Positions 2,695 to 61,642 of a stretch of DNA of 64,000 nt are shown here, piece after piece (position 1 is the first letter of the stretch; each line of letters opens with the position of its first letter). This DNA comes from Antedon bifida (Eukaryota > Echinodermata > Crinoidea > Comatulida > Antedonidae). The translations under genes and the position numbers were made by a program. Under the pieces are notes generated by a model. That model had not been told where the DNA came from, did no database searches, and was given only the letters and a program-made list of their open reading frames with translations. The stretch spans positions 21,452,001-21,516,000 of the forward strand of contig OY727097.1 of assembly GCA_963402885.1 (NCBI GenBank), given 5' to 3'.

Positions 2695-3407
2695 CATAAT
2701 ATAAAAATAACGCTTAAAAAAGAACGACGTTTCGACTCCATCATGGGGTCATTATCAAGTCCAATGAATAAAATATAAAACAACAACTAATTAAATAGCA
2801 CAAGCCAAGGGTCAAAGTTTAAATAACAAAAGACCTATTGTCTAACATCCTGTCAAATGAAAAGCTTAGCTTTTACAGAGTCACTTTGTTTATTCAGACT
2901 ATAGGTTTTAATTGTCTGATATACAACATTTCATAGATAAGACAGTCAAATTTGTTTTTGCATTTCCTAAGTATGCTAAAACATGAATTAATTTTACTTG
3001 GATTAACAATCACGTTATGATCCTTTAAATGCTTTCCTATTAAGCATCTACTATGTCCAACAATGCGTTGGTAGAGGTGTCGGCATGTATATCCAACATA
3101 ACTTGCATCGCACAAGTCACATTTAAATTTATAAACAACACATTGTTGACTTATAATAGTTGGTTTCTTTTCGACTTTCCTAATGTTATCTTTAACTTTT
3201 TTACTTATGAATACAGGGACAATGTTTTTGTTTATCTTGTGACTTAGTTGGCATAGTTGTCGCTTGACGGAGTTCGCAGATTTCTGGTCTTTGAATGGCA
3301 GGATGATTCGCACTGGTATTTCGGATAAATCTGTTTCACCTTCTGCAAAACAGAAGGTGAAACAGATTTATCCGAAATACCATTTACAATAAACGTACCC
3401 TCATTCG
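2695..3407 (-). mobile_element. Penelope-like retroelement fragment (GIY-YIG endonuclease end)
   Basis: On the minus strand an open frame of 139 codons (3313 to 2894, readable upstream to about 3368) encodes the C-terminal part of a Penelope-like polyprotein: RIILPFKDQKS, then a zinc-knuckle-like CDLC, then the GIY-YIG-type core YKFKCDLCDASYVGYTCRHLY. The reverse transcriptase half is missing, so the copy is 5' truncated. It is flanked by a direct repeat TAACATTCTAATTA at 2681-2694 and 3408-3421, read as the target-site duplication. The truncated 5' end terminates in a perfect inverted repeat (separate entry), and the 3' region has a GTCGAAACGTC motif typical of Penelope-like terminal regions. 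Not expected to be active. Confidence 0.82.
3314..3382 (+). repeat. Perfect 32-bp inverted repeat with 5-nt loop
   Basis: Arms 3314-3345 and 3351-3382 are exact reverse complements separated by CAAAA. The left arm is the start of the Penelope-like coding region read on the minus strand (codons for TDLSEIP). The structure therefore consists of element sequence duplicated in inverted orientation at the truncated 5' end, as happens when reverse transcription switches template or snaps back during insertion. Confidence 0.9.
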
Positions 3408-9830: not shown

Positions 9831-12192
9831 ATGTCTGCTCTTCAGAGGCCTAAAATAAGTCATGTCATATTTGATATGGATGGTTTGTTAATTGGTAATT
9901 ATAAATCCCTTTTAATATTAGTGTGCGTTGAATAGTCAATATAATATTATGCTATTTTTCGTAGGCTTGGGCTAGGCCTATATAAACCAGATATTCAATA
10001 ACCGCGTATCAATCATTCTTCCTGTTTCAAATCATACTGTACGCAGTTCGGTCTTGTTGTAAAGCGTTTCGGTCGCCTGTCGGTTTGACAACCTATTTAT
10101 ATCTATGTAAATTAACAATTTGTATTTGAGCTTTGAATAAACGGTTGGTCTAATACAATTGATTTAATGAATGTTTTGCTTTCAATAAAAACCATTCATA
10201 GTGCTCATATTGATGTGCATGAACGATTTGATACTTATTTTATTTCATTTCAAGCACGACACAATAAAGTGAATATTATGTACATTTATGATTTACAGTA
10301 CTGTTGTATACAATCAAATACACAAAAATATCTTGCATCAGTTTAAAATTGCGCTGCTTAATTTCAATCGAGTATTTTGATTCAAATGGCACACAAACAA
10401 GCCAAACTTATATTTATTTGTTGACCAAACAAGATTTAGTCAGAGTGAATGTTTGGGGCTTCCTAGTGTACTGTTAACTGTTCCAAATTAGCTGCCGGTT
10501 TAAATTAAACATTTGATATTAACCTGTTGGACCTTTCATGAGTAGGCCTAGGACTAAAGTAATTTAAAAAAAAATAAGATATAAATATCTGAAACCAGAA
10601 GGTATGTTTACATTATTTATTTGGTGGGGTGTATCACTCAACTTCATTTTCACATACACTTAATGTTTGATGAAATGTTACGGTAAGTTCAATAAGTAAT
10701 GTGAAATACCAGGTCATCCGACATGCTAATCGCTTGACCTAAGATCACCAGACTTTAAAATGTTTAAGCACCCATATATTTGTATTATTTCAGATACAGA
10801 ACGTTTGTATACAATAGTTTTTGAAGAACTTTGTTCTGAATATGGTAAAGCTTACACATGGGAAATTAAAGAGCAAAGTATGGGTCGGAAGCCTGGAGAG
10901 GGCGCTAAGATAGCTATTGATTCATTACAGTTGCCGTTGACAGTTGAAGAATTTCTTACTAAAGCTAAAAAAAAGCAAAGGAATGTTTTTCCACAGTGTT
11001 CACTTATGCCTGGTAAGATATCCAAAACAAAGATATTGTATGGATCACAAATCTTAAGAACACTAAAATCAGTGGTTCTTATCCAAGGCCCACTTTGGTT
11101 AAAAATGAAGCAAATTTAATAAGTGGTTTCTATAATTTTTCATAACAAAGCATCCAGAGGTTGAATTTGCTCAGACCCTGAAATGTTATAGTGTATTTGC
11201 TTATTTTATCCCATGGGAGAAATCAGTACAGGAAAATATTGAATAAGGTATTCATGATTCAATAAAACTCTTTTATCTAGGAGCTGAGAAACTTGTAAAA
11301 CATCTACATAAAAGCAATATACCAATTGCAGTATCGACAGGCTCTGCATCAAAGATTTATGATGTAAAGACAACAAACCATAAGGAATTGTTTAAGCTGT
11401 TTCATCATATAGTGTGCTGTGGTGATGATTCTGAGGTGAAGGAAGGCAAACCACATCCAGCTGCTTATACTGTTGCTCTACAGCGATTTGAAGCACCGAT
11501 CCCAAAGCCAGAACAGGTGTGAAAGTCTGTTTATATATTATAAATTGAACAATTAACAATATAAATCTGTATATGACACATTAAGTAATGAGGGAAGTAC
11601 TGTAAATGATTTATACTGTGATTAGGTGTTTACGAATCCAGTTTAAGGTTTAGTTTACATTGAAAAGGTCTATTGCATATGTCTAGTCTGGCGTGAGGCT
11701 CCCGCTATTTTACCCAACTTCAAGCTTTTTCACAAATCTCAGTCTTTTTTTTTAAAATTACTTTTAAAACTTCAAAATTCTGTTTACCATGCCTAAAATT
11801 ACCAATCCTAGGCCACAAAAACGTTGTGGAGATAATTTTAATGAATTAGGAATGTTTCAGCCTATGAATGTTTTGACCCAGTTGGCTTTGAGGTTTGGAA
11901 GGCAGGGTCATCATTGGGAAATCTCAAGTCGGCAACAATTTCAAACTTGACATGTATGCTATTTTCATATCTCTATACTTTAAAATTGAACTAAAACTTT
12001 ATCAAATTCCAGGTACTTGTATTTGAAGATGCACCAAATGGTGTCAAGTCAGCCAGAGCTGCAGGGATGCATGTTATCATTGTTCCGGATGATCGATTAG
12101 ATGAATCAAAGTCAAAGGATGCACAACTGCGCTTGAAAAGTCTTGAGGATTTTGTGCCAGAAGAATGGGGCTTGCCTGCATATGACAGTTGA
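9831..12192 (+). CDS. PUDP: Pseudouridine-5'-phosphatase (HAD hydrolase)
   Basis: Four exons: 9831-9894, 10794-11012, 11281-11516, 12013-12192 (TGA 12190-12192), with donors GTAATT, GTAAGA, GTGTGA, acceptors TTCAG, TCTAG, TCCAG and continuous phases 1, 1, 0. The product is 232 aa, close to the roughly 230 aa of animal PUDP/HDHD1. HAD motif I is FDMDGLLIDTE with the Asp nucleophile and acid/base at about 15 and 17. The helical cap follows (MGRKPGEGAK, LPLTVEEFL, LMPG). Motif II is VSTGS at about 112, and the motif III/IV region is EGKPHPAAY and VFEDAPNG with the metal-binding Asp at about 179. The enzyme dephosphorylates pseudouridine 5'-phosphate from RNA turnover, in the cytosol. The start ATG follows a short leader and gives the expected N-terminus. 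Subfamily choice rests on remembered resemblance to PUDP. Confidence 0.94.
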
Positions 12193-13374: not shown

Positions 13375-16300
13375 TCACACTGTCCATTTAAGACACCTGC
13401 AAAAATAATACCAATTTATAGTAAGTACTATTTATCATGTATGTAATGTAAATTTTAAATTCGGAAAGATATTAATAAAGTAACAATTTAATTATTTTGG
13501 TGTTATGTAATATTTCAGAGTTTCTTATGCATTCCCGTAAGTTATGTGTACAGTATATTATCATAGTGAGTTATTATTGCTACCTAGGTTATTATTTGTG
13601 TTTGTTTGGATAACGTAAAAATTAAAAGACGGATATTTACCAAATAGACAGATATAAACATATAGATATGTGGTCACGGACAACCCGGAACAGCATCCCA
13701 ATAATGGACCACTTTTTATTATTTTACTTAGCCCGTCTGTCAAAAATACAACCAGATCTTTATCATGATTCTCAATCCTTTTTCTCTTTTTACTCCGGCT
13801 GTGGGAGTTCAACTCTCTGATTGCTTTTGTTGTAAAATATATCCTTACCTTGTGTCTTGATGAGTTCCTAAACATTTAACACAACAGTATCTAGCACCAC
13901 ATGAAACACAAGTATAATTTGAAGGAAATGTGAACAACAGTTAAGGAAAAGAATTCATCATATAAAAGTCATGTTGTAAACCAGACCATATACTGTACAG
14001 TAATTGGTTTATAAAACATTAATTGTTTGATAATTTTCCAACTAAACTAGCCCTAGCTGCTGCTGACTGATTAGAAAAGAAAGTTATGTTAGTTAATACA
14101 GTATATGTTGATATTGCACACAGTCATGCAATTAATTTATAATTATTAGCAATGGTGCAGTGGAGGAGAAAGTAGAAACAAAGTTATTTGTTATTCCTGA
14201 TCAAGTTCACTGTAATGTGATTCTGGAGTGGTAAGTACTGTAGTAGTAAAACAGACACTGATGGGAAAACAAAATTTATACTGAAATTTATAGATTAGAA
14301 ACATTGGTAAAGGTTATTTACTACCCATGCAATCTGTACTATATTATTTTGTTGTGTAGTGGTAATTCATGTAAGCTTTTTGGTTTTATTGGGTCCACTA
14401 TATTTATTATTGTTTTATCAATCCTTTCACAATTTAAAGTTTTAAGGATTTTTATCATTTCTACATTCAAACAATATCAAAAGGATATCCACAGACATTA
14501 CAGAAATGCCTTTGAGGTAGAGTTGATGGCGATACACCAGCTGTGAAGTATGTATTTGGTTGCATGTTACTTGTCTGTTCTTCTTCTAATAGCATATTGA
14601 ACGTCTTGCGGAATCGCTGTTTAAAATGGTCTCCTCTTGTTTTCCTTTTTTTCTTAGGTGTATTTGATGCTGTAAGGTGAACATTTGATCATTTTATATT
14701 AAATAATGTTTCTGACACTATTATTAATAATTTATTTATTTTTTTTATAAACATATTTCTACTGGATGACAATATCAACGTTGTCCCACAAAGGGGACAT
14801 TGTTGTTTTTCAAAAGGTCCAGCATAAAACATAACAATATACATAATTATATAATACATAGTTTCTTAAAAATTGCTAAAATTAAACAGTCTAAAAATAC
14901 TAAAATGTGAGAACCATACATTAAAAATACAAAATTATGATTAAAAATCCAAGTTAAAAAGATGTTCATAAAATTATTTAATACATAGTTTCTTAAAATA
15001 GTAAAAAATGTTAAAATTAAACAGTCAAAAATAGTACTAAACTTTGAGAACCATACATTAAAAATACAAAAAAATGATTAAAAATCCAAGTTAAAAAGAT
15101 GTTCATAAAAAAGAATACACCACATAAAAAAAATACACTGAACAGATTTAAATTTTTTTTAAAAGTATTTCCCTAGAGAAAAAAAGTGTTTTTATAACTC
15201 GATTTGAACGCATTAATGGAAATTGAATTTTGAATGTCAAAATGTATGTTATTCCATATGTTTGCCCCTGCGACCCTCAGTGATTGTTCTTTCATTTTAT
15301 TCGTGTTTGGTATCGGGGGAACAACATTTAATGTCTCAGAAGCTCTCGTGTTATATCTATGTCTGTCTATTACCATCTCGATTTCATTACAAAGTCTATC
15401 TGGTGCAGCACCACGAACACACTTATACATAAGGGTAGCAAGAGAGTAATTTCTTCTCTGCTCAAAACTTTGCCAAGATAATTGTTTAACTATGTTTTCA
15501 CCCCTACTGTTTATGAAGTCGTGGTTCTTTGTAATTATTCTTGCCGCTCGTTTTTTAAACCTAAATATTTTACTTATATTTGTTGCAGATGTATTTCCCC
15601 ATACAGAAATGGCGTAGTCGCTACATGGCTGTATAGTCATTCTGTAAATTTTTTCTAGCAGGCTTTTGTTTAGAAATCTACTTACTTTGTTAAAAATTGT
15701 AATTTTGTGTCCAAGTGACTTACACAGATTACTAACATGATGGTTCCACGTTAAATGTTCGTCAATTTCTACACCTAGATATCGAGTGTGCTTAGAATTT
15801 TCAAGCTTTTTACCATTTAAGAAAATAGAAATATCACCATCTGGGCTAGAACGTTGGCCTCAAATTAACATAACTTTTGTTTTCTCTAGGTTTATACTGA
15901 GTTTGTTGCCCTCATACCATGTATTGACATTATCCATAATAGTTTGAAGCTTTTGATTGATTTCGTTAGTTGAACTCCCATTAACATAGATAGCAACATC
16001 GTCAGCAAATATACTACAAGAACCAGGGGAGATGTACTGTGAAATATCATTAATAAATATTAAAAATAAAATAGGACCTAACGAACTTCCCTGGGGTATA
16101 CCTATGTCAATATTGGTTGCTTTGGATTTACTACCGTTGCAAACTACAATTTGTTTTCTATTGCTCAGATAATTTCTGAACCAATCTATTTCGACGGTAT
16201 TGAATCCATAGTGTGAAAGTTTATTTATTAAAATAGAATGATCAATGGTATCGAAACACTTTGAAATATCAAGGAAACATACACCCACCATTTCAGATTC

Positions 16301-19300
16301 ATCGAGAATTTCTAGCCAATCATCAATCACTCTATGGAGGCAATTTACTGTGGAATGGTTTTTCCTAAAGGCAAATTGATTAACATTCATGAGATCATGT
16401 TCACTAAAGTATTTAACTATTTGTTTTTGAATTTCTTTTTCTACTAACTTAGCGATATGACACACAACTGATATTGGCCTGTAATTTGACATTGTTTGTT
16501 TGCAGCCATTACCTTTATAGATTGGTGTGGTCTTTGCTATTTTCCAGTCATTTGGTAATTTCCCTGATGTTAAAGAGATATTAATTATTCTGTACAGGGG
16601 TAAAGATATATGTTCTGCTGCAGTCCTTAGCAATTTACTATCAAAGCCTATAATATCATTATTGCTACTATTCGGTAGGCTTAAAACAGCTTTAAATAAT
16701 AGTGTCGGATATATTTATTTGTTTGTGTGTTTTAATTATCAACAATGACATATTTTTCTCGCAACCTTTTAAAACTATTCTGATTTCACATTAGCTAGTT
16801 TGACACTTTTGATTAACAAGCCAGTAATTTATGTGAACCTAAAATGATCTATAGAATAACCACCTTAACATTATCTAGTGGAATATGTTGGAGAATAAAG
16901 ATAAGATAAAGAGATACATAAACACTACATACACATTTCTGATGGAAAGAAAAGGAGAACTTCTGAATATCAGCTAACCCACTGGAAAGGTACCCCCTCT
17001 TTCCGTTTGAAATAAAAATAAACAAAGGAAGTAGATCTTAATTTTTCCCCATTAACCTAGTTTAATTTGCTAAATTAACTTGTAAGTTAGAATCACAGCA
17101 TTGATTAAGTATCCAAGTCATTGCACAGAACCTTGGCTCAATTACCTAATAGATCATGTATGTGAATCATACCTTATCTTACTAAAACTAACAAATTATT
17201 TTTTCTAAGGTTCAATATAAATAGAATAAAAAGTTAAAAATGTGTTACATTTGTTTGGGAATTTTACTGTTGAGTATAGTTATTCAGGAGTATTTTGAGC
17301 GTTGAGATTGTTCTTAACAAAAAGGCTTGCATTGTAAACGTTTTCTATTGGAATGATTTTCTGTTTGTTATTTAAATACAAAAGTACTCAACGAATCTTT
17401 ATGTTGACAATGAAAGTATCAATATGGTATAAACTTATAAATTCCAACAACCCAAAAACCAACTATAACAAAACTGATTAAATTAAGAGTTCAAAAGAAT
17501 AAAAAATAAAAATACCTGGTTCTTCATCAAACTGAGGTAATTTCTTCTTGAGTAAAACAAGATTAGCTTGAGGATCTTCCTGGAAATTGTCCTGCTCCAG
17601 TGCATCAAGCTGCTTTCTCATTCGTTTGGCACGGGTAAATTTATCAAGTATACGGCGCTGCTGTTGGTCTCTGATGCGCCCTTTTTAATGACACAAAACA
17701 AAATGTTTTATTTAGCTATGAGTATGATCTGATCAATAGATATGGGCCTAGGGCTAGGCCTATAAGTACAGGGTAATTCATGTGGGGCATGTGTGGGGCA
17801 TGTACGAGCCACAACGCACACTACCAACCCAAATGGTATTTTGAAAAAGGCTGTTCACTTTTTATTATTGAAGTATCATGATAATAATAATAAATGGGAA
17901 TATGAATAAATAATTTAGGAATCCATGGGAAAGTATGTCTTGAAGTGAGTGAACAGGACTCATAATATACTGTATAGACTGTTCTAAAATAAGCAATGTG
18001 AAGATCTTTGATGCCAATCTAGAAAATGATTCTGGCTAATTATCTAACTTAACTTAATATTATTTTCTACATTTGATTTGCGTGTGTCCTTCCTTATTTC
18101 ATTCTGTACATACATATATACTTACAGAACATACCTATTGATTTTTTTTTGTAATAAAAATTATTTAAACAAATTATAAACCCCAGCAGGATTTGAGCCA
18201 TGTAAAGCTAATACCTAAAGCAAAAAAATAATTTAACATGCTCCCTATCAGTGAATATATTTTGCCAAATACTTCACTCAGTTTCTGAATGCTTTCATTT
18301 GTTTGTTAGCAGGATTACTGAAAAAGTAATTACAAGATCTTTACCAAAATGATAAGATTTAGACTAAAATACAGATAGATAAATGGTAAAGGGCTACTCC
18401 ATTAAATGTTGGAGGCAATCCACACCACAGTCCCAATTATGGACCATTTTTTTTACTGTTAAAAGATAGGACAGAATTTTCAAAAGCTGGCGAACAGTCT
18501 TAAAGTAACAAGTAAACTGAAATTGCATTTTCTCGAGAACTACATGTCCAAAAATCTTCATTTTTGTACAAGAGGCAAGAGTTATAATTTGTGATTTGTA
18601 ATTTTAAAACATAATTTCATTCAATTTACAGGTTTTTTTAATATAAGTAGTTTTAAAAAACCTATTTCTTTTAAAATTCGCCCGTTAGTTTTTGGCGTTT
18701 CTGTTCTATTGTTAGTCAACTGATACTATTGTTAGTTGAAAGGCTGGTTACATAACCATTACACCAAATTCGCATACACATGCTTTTAGTGAAATTAGTC
18801 TAAATCACACACAGCATTAAGACACACACAAATATATATATATATATATATTTTCCCGGAGAAATCCTATGTAGGAGAATTTTACAGTAGGCGGAGGTAT
18901 GCACGCTCGGAGTGACTTCTTGTTATATTATTTATTTAATTTAAGTGTATGATAATATTCTAGGCCTATAGTTAGATAGGCCTACTGTAGTACAATTATT
19001 ATATTAGGCAATGCATACTTAGTCAGTAGTTATACTGTAATATATTAAAAAATCGAGATAGGCCTATGCCATGCCCTAGTATAGGTCTAGGCCTTGTATT
19101 ATTATGGCTACATTAAGCCCATTTGTGGATTATTCCGTCCCCTCCTCGACGATCTAGTCAAATTCGATCCAACTTGGCCAAAAACTAATCGGTCAACTCG
19201 GCCCCATTAAAGTATGGAACGCAAAAAGTGCAGACGAAGCGAATTGATAAAAGAATATTTAAATAATATATTATATATTTTTTTATTTTACTGTATTAAT

Positions 19301-19743
19301 CTAATATTATATATCTAATATATCTAAGAATGTTTCGAATCATTTTGGGAACATCAAAATATAGACCTAACATTAACAAACACATTACTGAGACTAACAT
19401 CACAACTAATAATATTTACTATAATAATATTAATAGGGCTATATATAAATAAATACTACCTATCAATTAAACGAAAAACGACAGGGTGTGTTATAATAAT
19501 TTATATTGAATTTTCCATTTTATTTTGTCTAGGCCTTTAACCTTTTAGTAGAGTGTGCGAAGCGAGAGCCTACCCTAGCTGGTCAAAAAATTGTTAAAAA
19601 GGGGCCGAGAATAAGACAATTATTTCTTTGATATTCCCATGACGGATAATTATTGTTTATTTCTAAAACAATATTGCATTTATAGTAAGTGTGACGTTAC
19701 AAAAACAAAATATCTTTTTACCCGATTCACGTTTATCAGCCAT
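13375..19743 (-). CDS. ZNHIT1: Zinc finger HIT domain protein 1 (SRCAP/SWR1 subunit)
   Basis: Five exons on the minus strand: 19743-19722, 17680-17516, 14669-14489, 13929-13849, 13396-13375 (stop TGA 13377-13375). The joined frame is 156 aa; human ZNHIT1 is 154. It starts MADKRESGR, then QQQRRILDKFTRAKRMR, ALEQDNFQEDPQANL, KKLPQFDEEP, a basic KKKRKTRGDHFKQRFRK region, and ends with the zf-HIT module from Cys119 to the end: C119/C122, C130/C133, C138, C142, H146, C151, last residues CLKWTV. The family member (p18Hamlet, yeast Vps71) is a nuclear subunit of the complex that deposits histone H2A.Z. Introns 1, 2 and 4 are GT-AG. Intron 3 is AT-AC with U12 signals (separate entry); only that choice gives the conserved CGFPSNYTC. 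Intron 2 holds a broken LINE in the same orientation. The acceptor of exon 2 has a weak pyrimidine tract. Confidence 0.95.
13930..14488 (-). other. U12-type AT-AC intron in ZNHIT1
   Basis: Read on the minus strand the intron begins ATATCCTTTTG (14488 downward), which fits the minor-spliceosome AT-type 5' site. It ends with the branch site TTCCTTAAC (13948-13940) followed 10 nt later by the terminal AC (13931-13930). Length 559 nt. No AG lies between the branch site and the conserved coding sequence, so a normal acceptor is not available. Splicing at AT...AC joins GG to A, giving the Gly of the conserved Cys-Gly-Phe-Pro in the zinc finger. Confidence 0.93.
14720..16712 (-). mobile_element. Broken non-LTR retrotransposon (LINE), 5' truncated
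   Basis: Minus strand. One frame runs from about 16709 to 15173 and encodes a reverse transcriptase: NYRPISVVCHIAKLVEK, FLDISKCFDTIDH, GIPQGSSLGPILFLIFIND and the catalytic FADD box. Downstream comes the usual C-terminal region (RYLGVEIDEHLTWNHHV, FKKRAARIITKNH, IWNNI). The frame is interrupted by one in-frame TGA at 15860-15862; otherwise it stays open. No endonuclease domain is present, and an upstream stop lies near 16710. The architecture resembles Jockey/CR1-like elements, but the clade was not resolved. It sits in intron 2 of ZNHIT1, same direction as the host gene. Confidence 0.88.
14851..15112 (+). repeat. Tandem duplication in the LINE 3' region
   Basis: Two ~130-bp copies in direct order (about 14851-14974 and 14975-15110). 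Both contain ATACATAGTTTCTTAAAA, GAGAACCATACATTAAAAAT and AAGTTAAAAAGATGTTCATA. Small indels separate them. Confidence 0.8.
17681..19721 (-). other. ZNHIT1 intron 1
   Basis: Non-coding AT-rich intron with scattered AGGCCTA words and the (TA)n tract. No exon or mobile-element coding sequence was recognised. A stretch near 18430-18450 (CCCAATTATGGACCATTTTT-like) resembles one near 13698-13718, probably an old repeat. Confidence 0.55.
18830..18852 (+). repeat. (TA)n microsatellite
   Basis: Run of alternating T and A in intron 1 of ZNHIT1. Confidence 0.85.
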
Positions 19744-20834
19744 TTTGTCGTCTGCTTTGTTGTTTTGGCCTTTGCTTCTAAATCAGTTGATTGGATTGGA
19801 CAAATAAAACGTGGTTTCCAATTGGACAGGGGAAGTTTGAATAGTTTCAAATAATAAAAATACTTGTAATTTCTTTATAAATTATGTGTAATAAATAAGT
19901 AAAACTATATTAATTGGAAAAATTATAACAGTCTATTGTGTATAATCATTTAAAGCTTGTATTGTATTTTGTACAATTACTGCTTTTTATGTGTATTGCC
20001 TCTCTGACCAATCAGAGGTGAGATAGCATAATCACAGGCCTAGCGGCTAAGCGGATTTTTTGAAATAACAAAAGTCAAGGAATAGGAAATCAAGTTTGAT
20101 GGTGCTGAAGTTTAGGCCTAAATTTTATATAATTGTAAGTATATCAAAGATGAAACTGATTTATTTTACTCACTAAAATGTTATAATATAATAATATACT
20201 TGATAATTGACTAGCAATATGAATATTAGGCCTATACACTAAACATTTTTGTTGGATACCTAGTTAGGCTAGGCCCAGCAGGGCCTACTAGGCTACATAC
20301 AGGCAGGCCTAGCCTAGGCGCAGCCTAGTAGTAGGCTAGCTAGGCCTAATTGGAACTAGGCGGCCTAGGCCTAATTGGAACTAGGCTAGGCGGCCTAGGC
20401 CTACTCTAAGCTAGGCCTACCTTCCTATCTAGCTAGCCTTTCGGAGGCTATTAATCCTAAATCCTATCTCTCTATCTCTAGTAGCTAGGGCTAGGCTATA
20501 TAGTAGGTAGGGCTAGGGTCTACTAGCCTATACTATTACTACCTAACCTAGTACTAGGCTAAGTCTTTAAAAATGTTACAAATGTATTATATTTTTACTT
20601 GATTTACTTGATTTTGAGACTTATTAAGGCCAGAGCTTGCTTGTGTGTCCCTCGACGTGTTTCTATATATATATTATTTTAATATTATTTTCCAAAAAGG
20701 GTGGGAGGCCCAAATAATTAGATATAGTGGGTCACCCACCACAACTACTGTACATCTGAATGAACATATTGTATTTTACTCTTATTAAGTATTCTCATAT
20801 TTTCAGATCTAAAAGGATTAGTAAACTTTTAAAG
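19744..20834. promoter_or_regulatory. Divergent promoter region ZNHIT1 / ECT2
   Basis: The start codons of the two head-to-head genes are 1.1 kb apart. An acceptor at 20805-20806 (TTTCAG) precedes the ECT2 start exon, so ECT2 has at least one upstream non-coding exon in this interval, not located. No TATA box could be assigned with confidence. The interval contains the TAGGCC/CTAGG array. Confidence 0.5.
20262..20563. repeat. Dense TAGGCCTA / CTAGG low-complexity array
   Basis: About 300 bp made almost wholly of overlapping, partly palindromic words: TAGGCCTA, CTAGGCCTA, GCCTAGGC, GTAGGCTAGC. One unit GCGGCCTAGGCCTAATTGG is present about twice (near 20330-20400). The same word is scattered through the rest of the window, but nowhere this densely. 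Confidence 0.8.
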
Positions 20835-23800
20835 ATGTCATCCATTTTGTTAGCGCAAGAGTCTCAAATTGACATGAGTTATGCTTGTCAAGGTGACCAG
20901 ACAGTTCAAGAACATCATTGTAAGTTCACATGCAGAGATTAGTAAACATAATTAAGTGAGAAACATACTATAGTATATGCAGAGATATATCATCTATGTC
21001 CTGGTTTGGCTGGGATACATTCTGCCTCAGTCAACCCTGGCAATTCAATGACCAAGATAAATTGCACTGTTTCACTAGCTTACAATTGTACATTTGTTCC
21101 CAGTAGTGTATGACCCAGGTTACACAATTATGGATAAATCTTCTCAATTTACAGTTTATAAAAGTGATATAATGATTTATTTTAAAACAGATAGCTTTTT
21201 AAAATTTCAATCTTTCATAAATTTATACATAAATAGTAAATTTGAATCTAAATGTAAATGTTTATCACAGGTGATGAAGAAATGATACCACTTGATGTTC
21301 GTATTTGTGTTGTTGGTGAAGTACTTGCTGATAATATTGAGCTTGCACGTTCCTTAGAGGTAAGATTTTTGTGCCTTTTATTATAATTAAGAATTAAATG
21401 CTTTGTGAGTTGGAAAAGAGTGAACAGAGTTATGGATTCATAGTAGTTTCTTGCTTTATATCTCTAATTTTGTGACAGTCAACCAATGACTTATGACATC
21501 CTATGAAGGTACTATTCACGTTGTTACGTTTGGTTTGGTAAATTTTGCAAGTTGCCAGACTCAATTTTCATTGATTCTAAATCCAGATGACGACCCCACA
21601 TAGATTATGTTACACATTTTGACCCTTTTTTGGGTGTACAATCGTCACAAAAAAAATGAGAAATCTGTTAAGGACATATTGTGTTTCATTGTTGCTAATG
21701 CATGAATGATTGTATTTAACAACTGCTTTTGTGAAAGAGAGAAGATTATTATGTGTGTTTATTAGAGAAGTATTCATTGTTAATATTAAATAATCATCAC
21801 AGAGTCATATACACCACCTGTAATTAATTATTAACCAAATGTTTGTTAATGTCAATGCATTAATTTTGTAGAAGCTGAAGTTTCCTGTTTTGTACTCGCC
21901 TGATGGTAGTGAATATTACCAGCACTCCGAGCAGTTTGACACTGTGTTTGTCATTGATAATTTTGAAGGAGCCTTATTCAAAAGACTAGCGCAGTCAGAA
22001 CATCGTGTTATTGGACCTTCTGTTATCTTGAGTTGTGCTAAAGATGCTCAGGTTTGTTATATCTCAGTCATTTCTGTTTAATCAAAGAAAGTCATCTATT
22101 GCAAAAATGTTGTACAGAAAGCTTATAGGGGTCATCAAATCAAATGTATACTGACCTAGATGTATATTGTTATGTAAACAATAAAGCATTTTTTTAATGC
22201 ACATCCAATGCCAGCAAAGTGATTACTTTGGTCAGGGAAGAGTGAAATTTCACTACTTTTCCCTGCGTTGGTTACATCATCATGCTTATAAACTAAGTCT
22301 CATTTAAGGCCTGTAGAGTGAATTAAAAGCAGTCGTGAGTTATAGCCTTGGCACTAGGTCAGGAGTAAACCCCTGACCTTGGGATTGTATCTTATCTGCC
22401 TGGTTGTTATTTTATAAATGACCATGGATACTGTATACTTTGAAATTATTTAAAGAATTATATTGTGTTTTTTAGCAACTTCCCTATAACTCAAGACCTG
22501 TTTACTGCCAGCATATGTCAAAACTTGTTGTTTGCTTCACTGGATTTCTGGAGAAGGAACTCCTGAAAAGAATGGCAGAACTTGTACATCACATGGGAGG
22601 CAGCGTCCGTAGAGAATTCACTTCTAAAGTCACGCATCTCATTGCTAACACACCTTCTGGAAATAAGTATAAGGTGAGAAAGTATCAAATTTGAAATTGA
22701 TAATTTGTCATTTAAACTTGTGACCTGTGTATTCACACTTAAAAGGACAATTGACAACATGTGTCATGCAATCTGACAGGTAAATAGGTAATAATACCAG
22801 CTGCTAAATACCATGGGATTTTGGTTTTGGTATTTTTAAAATGGTATCAACTAATATAATTATGTTGCATCTAAATTATTGTAATATTGGGGATGGAGAA
22901 GAAATTGTGGCATATTTACATTGCGTAAACTAAACTGGCTTCCTTATTAATAAACAATCTATTGGACTATTCTAGTTATAACATTTTAAATATTAATACC
23001 CTATCTATATCTTTTCACATTTATTCTCTGTAAACTTTAAATATGATTTTGTAAAAATGAAAATAATTATCTCCCTTAAGCTGCTTTCACATGACGGCCG
23101 AATTTGATCCGGCATCTGGCACCCTGAAAACATTTTGTGGAAAATGGATTCAGTGGTAATGCATAGGATCGTTCATATAAAAATCTTACATATACAAATC
23201 CATGCCTGATTCGAACTCTGAATTCGGAGCGATGGGTCAAGAAGCCATTTGCTGAAATTGTACAATTTTTTCTTTTGACTGAATGACCTCGCTAGACAAC
23301 GGATTATCACATTCATGCTCGATGTGAAAGCTCAATCGCGTTCACGATATTTTTGCCGTACTGAATCTGCAATGTGAAAGTAGCTTAATTGTTACAAATG
23401 ATTCCTGCTGAGGAGCTATTGAAGTAATTGCCTGCAAATATACAATCATAATAGGCATATGTACTGTTGTCTTTAAACTGTTTAAAAAGATCTGTCTTAA
23501 ATTAGAAGTTAATGTGTACCTTAAAGATGTATTGTCCCTTTGACTAATTCCAAAAAAATAAAAAATAACAGATTTCGAAAAAAGGTGGGTCATTTTGAAG
23601 TATCATAATAGTTATTAACTATCACCAAAAATTTGTCAAAAAAAAAATCATTTAACTGAAATACAGACGTTTTTTTGTTAAAAAAATAACTCTGACTTCC
23701 AGTCAAAGTTTTCGATCAAAACATACCCCATAATGAAACGCGCTTGTTTGGCTACTCTGTATGCATAATTATAAAACTTCCTCATGATCAGTGTGAAAAT

Positions 23801-26800
23801 ACCTTCTCAACCGTGACGAGTTGTAAACAATCCTAATTAGCATATGCATAATGCGTACTCGTGGTTTGAAATCCTTGTTTACTTTCGCTCGCGACGATTT
23901 TCCAGACGAAATGTAATTAAACTAATTTACCTGTTAATTACGTAAACTTGTTGCTTTTAGCTCGAATTTTCGACTTAAAGTGAATAACTTTATTATTGCT
24001 TTGATATGGCCAATTTAAATTTAGAATATTTTGACCTTCATTTTTTTGTGTTTCAAGGGACAATACATCTTTAACATTGTGTGTGTGAAAAGATAAATGA
24101 AGAAAATAATAATTTTTGCTGAATTGTATTACGTTTTAGGCTGCTGTTAGTCTGGGAACTCCTGTCATGACCCAACAGTGGGTACATGAAACCTGGAACA
24201 ACCGTGACGATATCAGCATCAGTTCACTCTCGGACAAAATGGTAACTTAATTTTTAAAGATTCACTTCCTACCTGTTTATTTGCAGTTAAATTTTAAAAC
24301 AGTATAGCTAACTGTATTATTAAATATTAATAGTTCATATTCATGCATTGAATATAAATAAGCTTGATATGAATGAGGATGGTTCAACCATCTTCTTGAC
24401 AAACTTTAAAGATTGTGTCTTTAAAAGTAATAGGGACTTTACGAAACACAACGGTTAGGGTAGGACGACAAATATCCTGTGTTCACTAGAGCATAAAATC
24501 ATATACAGTCAACATAGCCTTTTATTAGTTACGCACTATTGCGTGAATATAACGATGACCGGCATTCTCTCCCTCCCCTGTCTCGTGGCGCTGGGCCTTC
24601 TGAATCGCTTGGCTCTGGTAATACATCATCGGCATAGCCTTCCTAGATAGGGCCTCGCATTCAAACGCTACTTTTAACACAGCCATTTTAACCCAATAAA
24701 ATTGTTATTTTAATAAACAATTAAATTGGAAGTTCAAATATTATTTAGAGTTTTGAAAATTCCATGTTTAAGTGTAATTTGAACTGTATATTTAAGGTTA
24801 TATGTACATTATTTCTAGTCGTTCTCCGAACACGGCAAAATGGCAACTTTATCGTTCTCAAAAAGTTAAGACGATGGAATTTCACGCTAAGCTCCGCCCA
24901 CTTTGTTAAAGCTCATGCATTAATTATTCATGAGCACCGTCCTATGACTTCCTGTCGTGTTTCGTAAAGTCCCTAATTACACCAAGTAGATAGCAAGCAT
25001 TTGTTTTTCTAAATTTTCTTATCAGAATAGTCACAATCATATACAAATTACTTTCAATTCTTAAAAAGCCCTACTTTCAGTTTTTGTCATCTCTACGTTG
25101 TGAAAGTGAAATCACTGACTTATCTGTTTTTGTCATTTTCTTGAATATGTTTCTATAAATATTTATCAGATGATGTATAAGATGAAGCCCTTTCATAAGT
25201 GTGTGTTAAGTTTTATTGGATTTTCCGAGGAAGAACAAAAACAAATGCAAGACATTTCTACAGAACAAGGTAAGCCTTTCATCTGAATTGTAATTATGTA
25301 TTTGATTTATTTCAATAAAATATGGCAGGCAAAACCAACAAAGATATGTAGTAATTACCATGGTATCAGCTCTCTGAATCCCCAGAGCATTTACATCCTG
25401 AGGCTTCCCTTCTACATGAAAACAATTATGTCTTTTTGACATGTAATTCAAAATTGATAAAAAGCTGAATAAAATAGAAACATAGGTATAACTTAAAGAT
25501 GTATTGTCCCTTTGTCAAATTCCAAAAAAATAAAAAATAAAAGATTTCGAAAAAAAGTGGGTCATTTTGAAGTATCATAATAGTTATTAACTTTCACCAA
25601 AAATTAGTCTAAAAAAAATCATTTAACTGAAATACAGACGTTTTTTGGTTCAAAAAATAACTTTGACTTCCAGTCAAAGTTTTCGATCAAAACATATCTC
25701 ATAATGCAAGGCGCTTATTTGGCTACTCTGTATGCATAATCATAAAACGTCCTCGCGATCTGTGTGAAAACACCTTCTTAACCGTGACGAGTTGTAAACA
25801 ATCCTAATTAGCATCATGCATAATGTATAATCATGGTTTGAAATCTTTGTTTACTTTCGCTCGCGACGATTTTCCAGACGAAATGTAATCAAATTAATTT
25901 AGCTGTTAATTACATAAAATTGTTGTTTTTGGCTCGAATTTTCGACTTAAAGTGAATAACTTTAATATTACTTTGATATGGCCAATTTAAATTTAGAATA
26001 TTCTGACCTTCATTTTTTTGTGTTTCAAGGGACAATACATCTTTAAGTACTAAATCAAAAAAAAAAACTGCCTCAATATAAATTTATTAAGACAACATGT
26101 TTCGGGCATAGCCCATCATCTATATATACAATATGGTGTTCTCAACTCAACTCCACAATTGGCAATTGAATAAAACGAAAATACCAATTTATTCAATACC
26201 AATTATTTGTACTCATACAGGTGGATCTATATCAGAGCCTTCTGATCAATGCTGCACACACATTGTCGTCGATGATATCAATTTATCGTCATTACCATTT
26301 GAAGTACGCCCAAAGCTGACTGTTGTTAAACAAGAAGTATGTAAACAACAATGATATCCTATATTCTAAAACGTTACTGGTGAAATTGATAATTTTTAAA
26401 TAATAATTATTTTATATAGAATCTATCAAGATTAAACAAATCATTCTCTTTTGATTTCTCAAAACACATTTGTACATAGAAACTTTGTCAAAGTGCCTCT
26501 GAACATTACTTTATGGCTATAACATAAGTCTTATTGATTGATGTTTGTACTTGTACCTTTGGACAATATATATTTTAAAAAAAATTTAACTATTTAAAAA
26601 GACTAAAGGAAATTTGTTTGCAATTAATAAAATCCATTTCTAATTTGTAGTGGTTTTGGAGCAGTATCAAGATTGATGCCTGTGCTGATGCTGATATGTA
26701 CATATTTAACAAGGTAAAACTTCATAGATGATTACAATTCTATGATGATTAAATTGTATCATCGTGTTTATAATCTCATATTAGGAATGTCAGCCATAAG

Positions 26801-29800: not shown

Positions 29801-32800
29801 TACATATAACAAACTTAAGGCCAATTTACACAGTCGAGCGGTAAACGGAAAAGCGTGTGTACTTGTCTCACATACAATCTGTGTCTATTCTGAGCGGGTT
29901 TACGTTCAACCACCCGTCCCGTTTTGTGTAAATGCTCGTAAGAAATAGCATAGATTCTATATTTTTGCTTTTTGCATTAATGCTCGTCTGTGTAAATTGG
30001 CCTTTAACCCTCTTAGTGCCACGGGCGGCGTTAGACACCATATGGGACATGCGTTGAAAACCCCTAGTCGGCGATACACACCAAACGTACCTTCTGTGTT
30101 TGAGGGCGATAATCACTAACTTCTGCTTGTCTGAGGATTCTGGGATAGCTTTTATTCGATCAAGCGTAAAATTTTCTTTCGAAAAATGTCAACGAAAAAA
30201 TTTTCGCTATAGGAAAATCTTTTGGAAATATCAATTAAAAACTAATTAATTAATCAAAATCATGTTGTTTGTTGATTACACGTTCTCCGTATCTAGTCAC
30301 ACAACCGGAAATACTGACTCCTTTGTTGAAAAATGTGCAACGCGAGACGAATTGTTTGTAGGCCCATGCAGCACGTTGTCAGAATTTACTCGCCTGAGTA
30401 ACTTGCTTATAGTGGGCATGCTCAGACTAACGATGGTGATAGGATGGTTTGATTGGGCCTAGGCTAAGATTATACGATGGCGGTTTATTTGAATAAAATA
30501 ACTCGTATCTAATTCTCCTATTATTACTTTTGTTCAAGTAAATATACATTTATAGGTATGTATTATAAATATTTGTTTGTTGGGGTTTTCTAAATATCAT
30601 TTTATTATCGTTTTTATACGATTTTTTAAAGCAATTTCTTGGAAATTTTAATTAAAAATTAGAATTTTTTTTTAATTCATACATTTCATAAATAAAAATA
30701 AATCATACAAATATACATTATACATCATTTTACAGGAAATTTAATAAGGAATATTTGTTTTTAGAAACATTTTTTCATACATTTATGATAAAATGATGAA
30801 ATTACTGTTTGAAAAATTTCAACTCCCTGGAGTATTACAAAAATGCTGTTCTGAAAAGAATACGGTTGAGGGGAAATGGCTCTCTCTCGGGAATTTGGAA
30901 CTAAGAGGGTTAAGCTGATTAGAATCATATCCAAGTTGCATTTAATGCTTGTGTGATCAGTTTACTCTCTTAAGCATCCATGTTGTTGCCGATGTACCTC
31001 TTGATATAACTCTCATATGTTTCAGATGTACATTCAATGTCACTACTACAGGTTTTAAAGGTTTAAGTACCTTCCAATCATATTTCAACCGGGTTATATC
31101 ATATTTTGAGCCCGTGTCTTGCTTGAATGCTAAAGCTAAACCACAATATAACTTCAATAGAGAAATGAGTATGTAAACATGGCTACAAATACAGTTATCT
31201 TGTGACAAAACACAAGATGAATTATCTAAAGAGAAAATTTGTTTAAATCTAGACATATAAATGAGGATAAACGCAAGACAGAAGGGCATACTCAGATGTT
31301 TGACGTCATCAGTGAAATAGATGGCGTTCCGCCAACACTTTTATCTGCCCATCGCAGCTTTGTCACAAGGATTGACACTATAGAGATTGGTGATCGTGAA
31401 CATGGCAAGGGGGATAATTTCTCAGAAAAGGGAGGGAGTGTATCAATGTTTTTATTTACAGATTTATTAGAGGTAAGATTTAAACAAAATATTTTTCTTT
31501 AGATATTAGTTAAAACTTTAGGCTAACCATTCAAAAAGGCAGTAATAGAACCATTGAATAGAACCTTTGTCCAATAGAACTAATATTGAACAGGTGAACA
31601 TGTTCTAAAAATTGTTTAAAAACAAGGCATGAGTTCTAATAAATTGCTTGTCTATAGTATATTAGTTACTCTCTAAAAGTGTCACTCTTACATATGGAAT
31701 AGAACAACATAGAGAATGAAATCATCAACAGAAAATTTATCAATGAAGAACAAATATATTAATTTTATTTGATTATAGATCTGTAAAAGAAGAAGTAAAG
31801 CAAGCACAACATCTCACAAAAGTCCTGCTCTTAGCAAGACATCTAAGTACTACAAGCATATTGAATTGTTACCATTGTCGCATATAAGGCGAGTGTTGGA
31901 TGTTAAAGAAACTGAAGGTAAGGAAATGCATTAAAAAAATACAACTTTATAAATGTGTCAGTTCCATATGCCTATTATTACATTCACTTGGATGGAAACG
32001 GCTTACTTGAGTATGTAACAAAGTACTTTAAGCTATTAAAATATACAATATTTTTCAAAGCTGACAGCCAATCAGGTGCTGTTTTGTTTTTGCCATCTAT
32101 TATTAATAAATGATCTTATTAAAAGTTATTTATTAAAATGTTTACCATTAAATATGATATGTTATACTAGTTATTTTATCTTTAATTATATATATTTTGA
32201 GCTGTTTTTCTATGCATCAACTTTTTGAAGTAAATCTTACATCATAAGTGATGTTTTGTTTCAATAACAAACTATTACTGCTTTCAGATTGTAAAAACAC
32301 ATTTGCATTGCTTTGTAAACCACCAATGGAGATATCGGACCGCACAGACAGACTGTTTATGTTCACATTGATTGGTGATGAAAAGAGTAAAACACAATGG
32401 TTGAAGACACTCTCACAACACATGGCAAATATAACATGTAAAGCCAATTCGGTAGGTTTACTTATTTCTAATCTTATTCTACTGGGCTTTTTACATTTCA
32501 ACTGCTTTATCATGTGTGAATAGCATACTGTGGCAATTTGTATATTTTTAAAGCAAAAAATACTCAAATTGGCTGCCAGCCAATGGGTTCTTTGTTGAAT
32601 TTAACCATTTATTTTGTCGTTTTAGTGAAGTGAAAACATTAATTAACTTTATTAAAACTACAAAATAATCTATTCAAAGTCTGATTTTATTAATCTTTAT
32701 TTTTCATGTTTTGGGGGACAATACATCTTTAAATAAAATATGTATATCCACTGATACTAGCTATGTAGACACAATGTATGCTTAACTTAAGTACACTAAT

Positions 32801-38345: not shown

Positions 38346-41333
38346 GTTTTATTCTAGTGTATTACGATTATAGTGGTTAGTTTTTGTTACGTTGACTGAT
38401 GTTACATTAGGATTGGTTAACACTAGGACGAAACGCAAATACGTAAGCGCAACGCCATCGAGTTGACCAATGATGACAGATTAAGTAATCCATTGCTTGT
38501 GATTGGTCAAATTACTTGCGCTCATGATTAAAGATAGGGGTTGGTATAATAGCACATGTAAGTAGCCTACTGGTATTCGTTTATTATCTCCTTCATCCAC
38601 GCACGCGACATCAGCAAATGAATACAAATTTTATCCTGTGTTATATTATATGGTATAATATATCGTTACTCATTAGATGGATAATATCGAGTATAGATTT
38701 TGATTACGTGGAAATGTACAATCAACTTGGTTAAGATTTATAGCATGTGTACACTTTCGCATTTTATTTATTTTTAGATTTCGCGAAATTAAAGAGACGA
38801 ATAAATCAATTTGTTGGAAAGCGTTCATATGGAAATCTGCAGAGACGAAGGATGAAATTAGGCCTGGTAGGCCTACTATTTTAATCACTACTAGTTCAAG
38901 ATATAGATTAAGGGATCCCAGATTAAGTATTATGCCTCTTTAAAAAACAATCAAAGATGGTGAATATTACGGCCCTAGTATTTTAGAATTGTAAACCATG
39001 TAAAGAAGTTTGCAAAGCTATCTTTATTGTGCTCTTTTAGATTGTTCAGGGGATCATTTAACATTCAAACCATCCTCGTAATATTAAGCAATTCTTTAAA
39101 ACCAAAATAAAACCACCAAAACGTCATCAATGAACTTGTATATATAGTTAGTTAAGTTAAAATGCAAGTTTGCTTTGTCATTGACACAGGTTGACTCATT
39201 TCTAAAAAACACATTACACTCATCTATACATTGTTTTGTTAATTGTTGATATTAGTCAATAAATAAAACATCAAAGGTGTGAACGAGGTGCTTGCATCTT
39301 GCTATTGTATTCGCAACCCACCTTAAAATCGATCCAAGGCCTGGGCATTATTTTAAAGGCCTACATGCACACTCACAACCGAAGAAGTAATATGTAAGGC
39401 AGCATGAATGAATATTCTTAATTTATAGTGGTATCCAATTTTGATTTTATTTACTTTGTGTTACTTTTGTAATCGAGAAAAGTTCCCCGAAACAAAATTG
39501 ATTGATTGAATAATTATAATACGCGATATCCTCTTTAACTATACCCCCTCTATAGTTTGTTCCCTCTTGCGCTGAAACTTCTTTATTACGTTTAGCCCAA
39601 CATCAGATTGTACAGTACTACCATATAAGGTAGGGACAAGTGAAACTTCAAATTCCTACCAGTTTTTTGGTTTTTAAACGGGCCTACCAGTTTCTAAACG
39701 GTGGCAGATATTAATCACCATTTATATTTAAATTTAAAAACACATTTAACTAACTTGGAAAAGTTATGTTGAAAATTATTATTATATACAAAATGGGGTT
39801 TTAGTAGGCCTATCGTTAATTTAGGCCAATCAACGTCTGTGATAATTATCGGTATCAGGGATTAATTTTTTTTTTACATTTGAAACACAAGAAATCCAAA
39901 ATATGACGTAACTATTTAGGTATCATCGTTGAATGTAAGTAAAGTCGCCGGAAGTTGTTCAATGGACGATTGTTTCCTGTATTATCAGTAATAGCTATAT
40001 AGCGGATATAATTAATCTCAATTAGATAAATGTCCATCGTCACATGGTTACGTGCAGTTACGGTAGTCCCGCGTTTGGTACCAATGCCTTCTGGGTATAC
40101 TGATATTTGTTGACTTTCAGGGTAGGGTAGCCTTGAATAAGTAAAGTGAACTTGGCTATTAGTAGAACATACAATTAACTAAATTAATACCATGCACCTT
40201 TATTAAAGATTATCACGATACTATAATCATTTTTTCATTTAGTAAGATATATGTTGAGTATAAAATACTCAAAGTGCGTGATTTTCATACGTATTGTACG
40301 TAAACAAATTAAGTATGCGCGTGAGTGAACTAAGAACTTACTTTATTTTCCCGAAGATCGGTGGAAGAAGAGCCTTTTAAGTTTTATAATGTATGTGGTT
40401 ATTTTAGTATGCTACCTGAGTCCAATTTTACAAATTAGAAAATTATTATTAAATATTACTCTTCATTTAAATTCCGAATTTGTTAAAAAAAAAAAGATAT
40501 ACAGAGTATTCTAAAACCGAATCGCAAGATAGAACTGAAATAATTTACTGTAATGTCTGGGGCACGACAATGGTATAAACTATGACAATCGCCAAAATGT
40601 CTGGCCCCGCCCTTGTTTCACCTTGCGATACCACTCTGTGACGTAGAAAGTATCCTTTTGGCATGAAAGTGCATTTGAAGAACCCCCACGTAGTTTTCGT
40701 ACCTGAGTACGCACTACTAACTAAGTGGAGTCGGATAACTCATGGTAAATGTTCATCCGCTGAAGTTTTATATTTGAACGTTTACAGCTTGCAGTGGGTA
40801 ATGCATTATTTTTCATCTAAACACGCGTATACAGATTCATTAGATTGTGCATATGTACGATTGAAGTGTACACAATTTGTTTCATAGTGTTTTATTTTTT
40901 GAACTATTTTATTTGATCTATATCTATTGGCGGAAGTGCACGATACCAGTCGGTCGTTGACCCAAATTTGGGAACAAGGTAGATGTGTGTATTGGTAGTT
41001 ACTGAAGTGTACACCTCCGCTCTACAGTGCAGAACAGCGTACTATTGGTGTGTAGCAATTGGTGTGTAGCGATTGTTGTTCGCGACGCTAAGTCATCAAC
41101 AATTTCAACAATAGTTTACAGTAAAATTCAGGATTGATTCATGCATTTCATTGCGTGTTTTTATTGTTTGAATATAAATTAAGATAACTGGTTTGTTAAA
41201 TACAAAGGTAACGCTTATAATTGTGTAATAAAACAGGCGATTTATATTTTAGTGCTAGGCCTGGCTTAGCGGCTGTCATCAGCTAGTATTAGACGTCATC
41301 AACGCAAAGTACCACCGTTAGGGTTGGTCCAAT

Positions 41334-61642
<20,309 letters not shown>

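Follow-up and report, generated by a model that had tools for sequence, protein, structure and literature searches.

A ZNHIT1 gene and its surroundings

On the minus strand of the window, by which is meant the whole 64 kb stretch of DNA analysed, a five-exon ZNHIT1 gene can be assembled between positions 19743 and 13375, with a predicted product of 156 aa (Table 1). Three of its four introns (introns 1, 2 and 4) have GT-AG termini. When a hand-entered human ZNHIT1 sequence was used as tblastn query against the window, exons 3, 2 and 4 were the three best matches (E = 2.9e-19, 1.6e-15 and 4.1e-13, respectively) and exon 5 was the fourth (E = 0.99, 7/7 residues). Exon 3 exhibits 56% identity to human residues 62-123, with a match that extends 7 nt into intron 3, and exon 4 exhibits 85% identity to residues 122-148. 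Exon 1, placed by eye and missed by tblastn, is the least certain of the five.

Regarding the identity of the product, its similarity to human ZNHIT1 is close and runs from residue 9 to the last residue of the human chain, which has 154 aa. Aligned with the human chain 8x15_L, the spliced product gives E = 8.2e-40 over residues 63-154 and is gap-free at the intron 3 junction. The full 156-aa protein also harbors a zf-HIT domain (Pfam PF04438, 39.6 bits, over the cut-off), and this domain together with the near full-length similarity identifies the product as ZNHIT1. Yeast Vps71/Swc6 shows a weaker similarity over the finger (E = 9.2e-6 for Vps71). ZNHIT1 is known as a subunit of the SRCAP complex, and in the locus described here its finger is predicted to be split by an AT-AC intron.

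Table 1. Positions, within the window, of the ZNHIT1 gene parts, the putative signals of intron 3 and the neighbouring features
Feature	Position	Strand	Basis or remark
ZNHIT1 exon 1, coding part, MADKRES + 1 nt; donor GTAAAAAG, phase 1	19722..19743	-	by eye
ZNHIT1 exon 2; donor GTATTT, phase 1	17516..17680	-	tblastn, 55% identity, human residues 9-61
ZNHIT1 exon 3; 3' end ...FCNVCG, with GG from the Gly codon; carries finger Cys 1 and 2	14489..14669	-	
ZNHIT1 intron 3, AT-AC, predicted U12-type, 559 nt, phase 2	13930..14488	-	
Putative U12-type 5' splice site ATATCCTTT	14480..14488	-	9/9 vs /RTATCCTTT
Putative U12-type branch site TTCCTTAAC, then T	13940..13948	-	complete consensus match
3' terminus AC of intron 3, context TTCAC/ATTTCC (slash, splice point)	13930..13931	-	
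ZNHIT1 exon 4, FPSNYTCVSCGARYCCVKCLGTHQDT; remaining finger minus last Cys; donor GTAAGG, phase 2	13849..13929	-	
ZNHIT1 exon 5, (R)CLKWTV stop; acceptor TTTTTGCAG	13375..13396	-	tblastn and spliced reading
Non-LTR-type reverse transcriptase frame in ZNHIT1 intron 2	15173..16714	-	RVT_1, 125.4 bits, at 15860..16714; type by eye
Second open stretch of the intron 2 LINE	15173..15859	-	same frame after one stop; no Pfam match
Two repeat copies of ~577 nt	23498..24074 and 25470..26046		~1972 nt apart; 90-94% alike over three ungapped pieces
ECT2-like gene	31230..31502	+	Pfam ECT2_PH, 38.1 bits
YAP/Yorkie-like gene	41322..61642	+	TEADIR3 (TEAD-interacting region) 41322..41747; WW domain 54224..54616; last piece 61340..61642, by eye only
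HAD-like hydrolase exon	11247..11522	+	
GIY-YIG-like frame	2894..3367	-	22.1 bits, just under the Pfam cut-off of 22.6
Dense low-complexity sequence of GCCTAGGCCTA type	20250..20600		

Several other features can be found in the window. The LINE in ZNHIT1 intron 2 has an A-rich tail, the end of which lies under 100 nt upstream of exon 3. Low-complexity stretches of the GCCTAGGCCTA type, as at 20250..20600, are reminiscent of echinoderm or hemichordate genomes. Upstream exons of the ECT2-like gene, BRCT-like by eye, start at about 20.8 kb, so that this gene lies head to head with ZNHIT1. The two repeat copies have inverted-repeat-like ends by eye and probably represent a non-autonomous DNA transposon. 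The HAD-like hydrolase exon is one that we take to resemble pseudouridine-5'-phosphatase, and the GIY-YIG-like frame may, we assume, come from a Penelope-like element.

Elsewhere, one of 87 pattern matches, on the Desulfobacteraceae contig L001, was confirmed by tblastn as a match to ZNHIT1 and was taken as chance; it consists of 17 residues alike in GC-rich sequence, and the other matches in its 10 kb locus have E values of 0.35 or worse. In viral contigs, 17 stretches fit the peptide pattern and none was confirmed.

Borders and signals of intron 3

Read on the minus strand, intron 3 has 14488 as its first base and 13930 as its last; it begins ATATCCTTTTG and ends TTTTCCTTAACTGTTGTTCAC. Joining the end of exon 3 (TGT GG) to the start of exon 4 (A TTT CCT) gives Cys-Gly-Phe-Pro, gapless relative to human ZNHIT1. 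If the junction is slid 1 or 2 nt downstream, an identical mRNA results and the intron termini become TA-CA or AT-AT, so that only the unslid junction, with AT-AC, has accepted termini.

The U12 signals were judged against published consensus words instead of a weight matrix; PMC2846911 gives /RTATCCTTT as the donor word and UCCUUAACU as the branch word. The donor word stands at the very first base of the intron. After the branch word, which is directly followed by TGTTGTTCAC, ten bases remain in the intron, the last two being AC. The candidate branch adenosines, 13942 and 13941, are separated from the final intron base by 12 and 11 nt, and a review gives 11-13 nt as the optimum distance between branch and 3' splice site for U12 introns (PMC3584512). 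With RTATCCTTT at its first base, a branch word at the proper spacing and AT-AC termini, intron 3 has features by which U12-type introns are recognized. Donor, branch site, spacing, termini and a phase other than 0 are all common to it and to known U12-type AT-AC introns, and no sequence difference from the latter was seen. Based on the consensus words and on protein homology, its assignment to the U12 class is well supported.

The first-pass annotation had proposed an AT-AC intron on the minus strand with exactly these borders, opening with ATATCCTTTTG and closing with TTCCTTAAC and ten bases of which the last two are AC; both ends are present as it described, and the 5' site and branch site that it called near-ideal are full matches to the published words. 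Its placement of the intron inside the zf-HIT finger agrees with the gapless human match at the junction and with the zf-HIT scores, which reach 40.9 bits in the 93-aa spliced piece vs 13.7 bits in the 66-aa piece that reads on into the intron (cut-off, 24.7).

By themselves, the U12 words are not significant in the AT-rich 64 kb window, where ATATCCTTT occurs twice (shuffle mean, 1.39), TTCCTTAAC twice (shuffle mean, 0.84) and RTATCCTTT three times (2.28 expected). The joint arrangement of an AT-AC donor, a branch word and AC was found anywhere in 3 of 300 dinucleotide shuffles of the window. Chance is nevertheless an unlikely explanation, because the words sit at a junction that is fixed independently by protein homology: computed from the shuffle rates and assuming independence, the probability that the junction base carries a perfect donor word and that an equally perfect branch word occupies one of three spacings is about 1e-10 to 1e-9.

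Other splice pairs and rival readings

Splice pairs were enumerated within 14669-13849, taking GT, GC or AT donors from 14569 to 14220, AG or AC acceptors from 14470 to the end of that range and introns of at least 40 nt. The 3592 pairs tried comprised 1563 AT-AC, 802 AT-AG, 718 GT-AC, 371 GT-AG and 138 GC-AG; those that left an open frame in the phase required by exon 5 were kept and scored against human ZNHIT1. Such pairs numbered 61 (25 AT-AC, 17 AT-AG, 9 GT-AC, 6 GC-AG and 4 GT-AG), and an intact zinc finger was obtained from a single one, 14488/13930, which also has the top score (306).

A conventional intron, with a product that merely differs from human ZNHIT1 at this place, would have to use one of the open, in-phase pairs with GT-AG (4/371) or GC-AG (6/138) termini. 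In the range searched, none of these preserves the finger, all ten dropping at least half of it, and the best of them score 158 (GT-AG) and 178 (GC-AG) vs 306; a conventional intron is extremely improbable. Across the enumerated range, the earlier statement holds that Cys-Gly-Phe-Pro is regained with neither a GT donor nor an AG acceptor. The nearest competitors are the AT-AC pairs 14486/13940 (292) and 14477/13940 (289), which are open, in phase and keep all cysteines, and which would insert 4 or 7 residues after Cys-Gly. The added residues are absent from human ZNHIT1, the U12 donor word is not the 5' end of either intron, and both, like 14498/13940 (285, with one finger cysteine lost), would place the acceptor where the branch word ends, which is unlikely. 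The use of either neighbouring pair in place of 14488/13930 is accordingly given hardly any weight. Part of the finger is lost with the GT-AC pair 14492/13940 (276) and with 14488/13912 (263).

AT-AC termini alone leave the class of an intron undecided (PMC2831892; PMC3584512), and intron 3 could in principle be removed by the major (U2) spliceosome, as is SCN4A intron 21. A pyrimidine-rich run, TTCTTTTCCTT, which lies near the 3' end of the intron and overlaps the branch word, would fit removal by U2, but the donor and branch words constitute a complete U12 consensus at U12 spacing, which makes a U2-dependent AT-AC intron very unlikely. That the locus is a non-functional copy or is misassembled, with the true ZNHIT1 elsewhere, might be suspected from the LINE inside intron 2. 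Against this stand five exons that are all open, with plausible borders and a product close to the human one, as well as the fact that processed copies have no introns, and we regard this explanation as barely credible. We thus put at roughly 95% the probability that the sequence at 13930..14488 is the third intron, AT-AC and of the U12 class, of an animal ZNHIT1 gene that is ordinary in other respects.

Predicted consequences and context of a probable U12-type intron in ZNHIT1

For such a U12-type intron, U11 and its 48K protein would be expected to recognize ATATCCTTT and U12 to pair with TTCCTTAAC; in general, U11-48K recognizes the first donor bases, and U12 the branch site (PMC3584512). 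U4atac/U6atac would complete the catalytic complex, and the joining of GG to ATTTCC would complete the zf-HIT finger. In conceptual translation, retention of intron 3 gives CNVCGYPFDIV, with six intron codons read, and a stop after 129 aa, so that failed splicing would leave a protein with only two of the finger cysteines. Decay is expected for retained transcripts that carry a downstream exon junction. Since an exon junction lies downstream of the stop in the transcript retaining intron 3, nonsense-mediated decay is predicted for it.

The ZNHIT1/SRCAP complex has a role in H2A.Z loading. Human ZNHIT1 is a member of the SRCAP complex (PMC5460035), and by homology we infer membership of an SRCAP-type complex for the present product. 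If intron 3 is of the U12 class, dependence of ZNHIT1 expression on the minor spliceosome would follow from that class, and in this animal the output of ZNHIT1, hence the SRCAP complex and H2A.Z loading, would be tied to the activity of the minor spliceosome. No minor-spliceosome snRNA was found in the 64 kb window (Rfam, 0 families at gathering score). In mouse Cwf19l2 mutants, skipping of Znhit1 exon 2 goes with lower ZNHIT1 protein (PMC11336944). This is a different event, and its description there does not name the minor spliceosome; since a splicing fault in Znhit1 is accompanied by lower protein in mouse, sensitivity of ZNHIT1 to splicing is nonetheless plausible.

U12-type introns make up less than 0.5% of introns (PMC3584512), and AT-AC introns represent 26% of human U12 introns and 8 to 47% of those in the tabulated animals that have any (PMC7367187, Table 2); the first-pass description of AT-AC introns as a rare minority class is thus right per intron. 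Rare as they are in this sense, U12 AT-AC introns are well known and present in many animal genomes, and finding one more, here in ZNHIT1, is not surprising. Minor-intron density in deuterostomes resembles that of vertebrates, tunicates excepted (PMC10639083), and U12 introns with AT-AC termini convert to U2 type less often than those with GT-AG termini (PMC2831892). Lists of U12 genes are usually placed in supplements; in the article texts searched, no published link of ZNHIT1 to a U12 or minor intron was found.

It is possible, if rather doubtful, that an old U12 AT-AC intron has persisted at this codon in one animal lineage or more, with H2A.Z deposition responsive to the minor spliceosome and the retained half-finger transcript degraded. 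Conservation of the intron would connect chromatin remodelling with minor splicing. Should the assignment to the U12 class be true, ZNHIT1 would join the genes that need the minor spliceosome in at least one animal, and gene finders restricted to GT-AG introns would truncate this ZNHIT1 gene.
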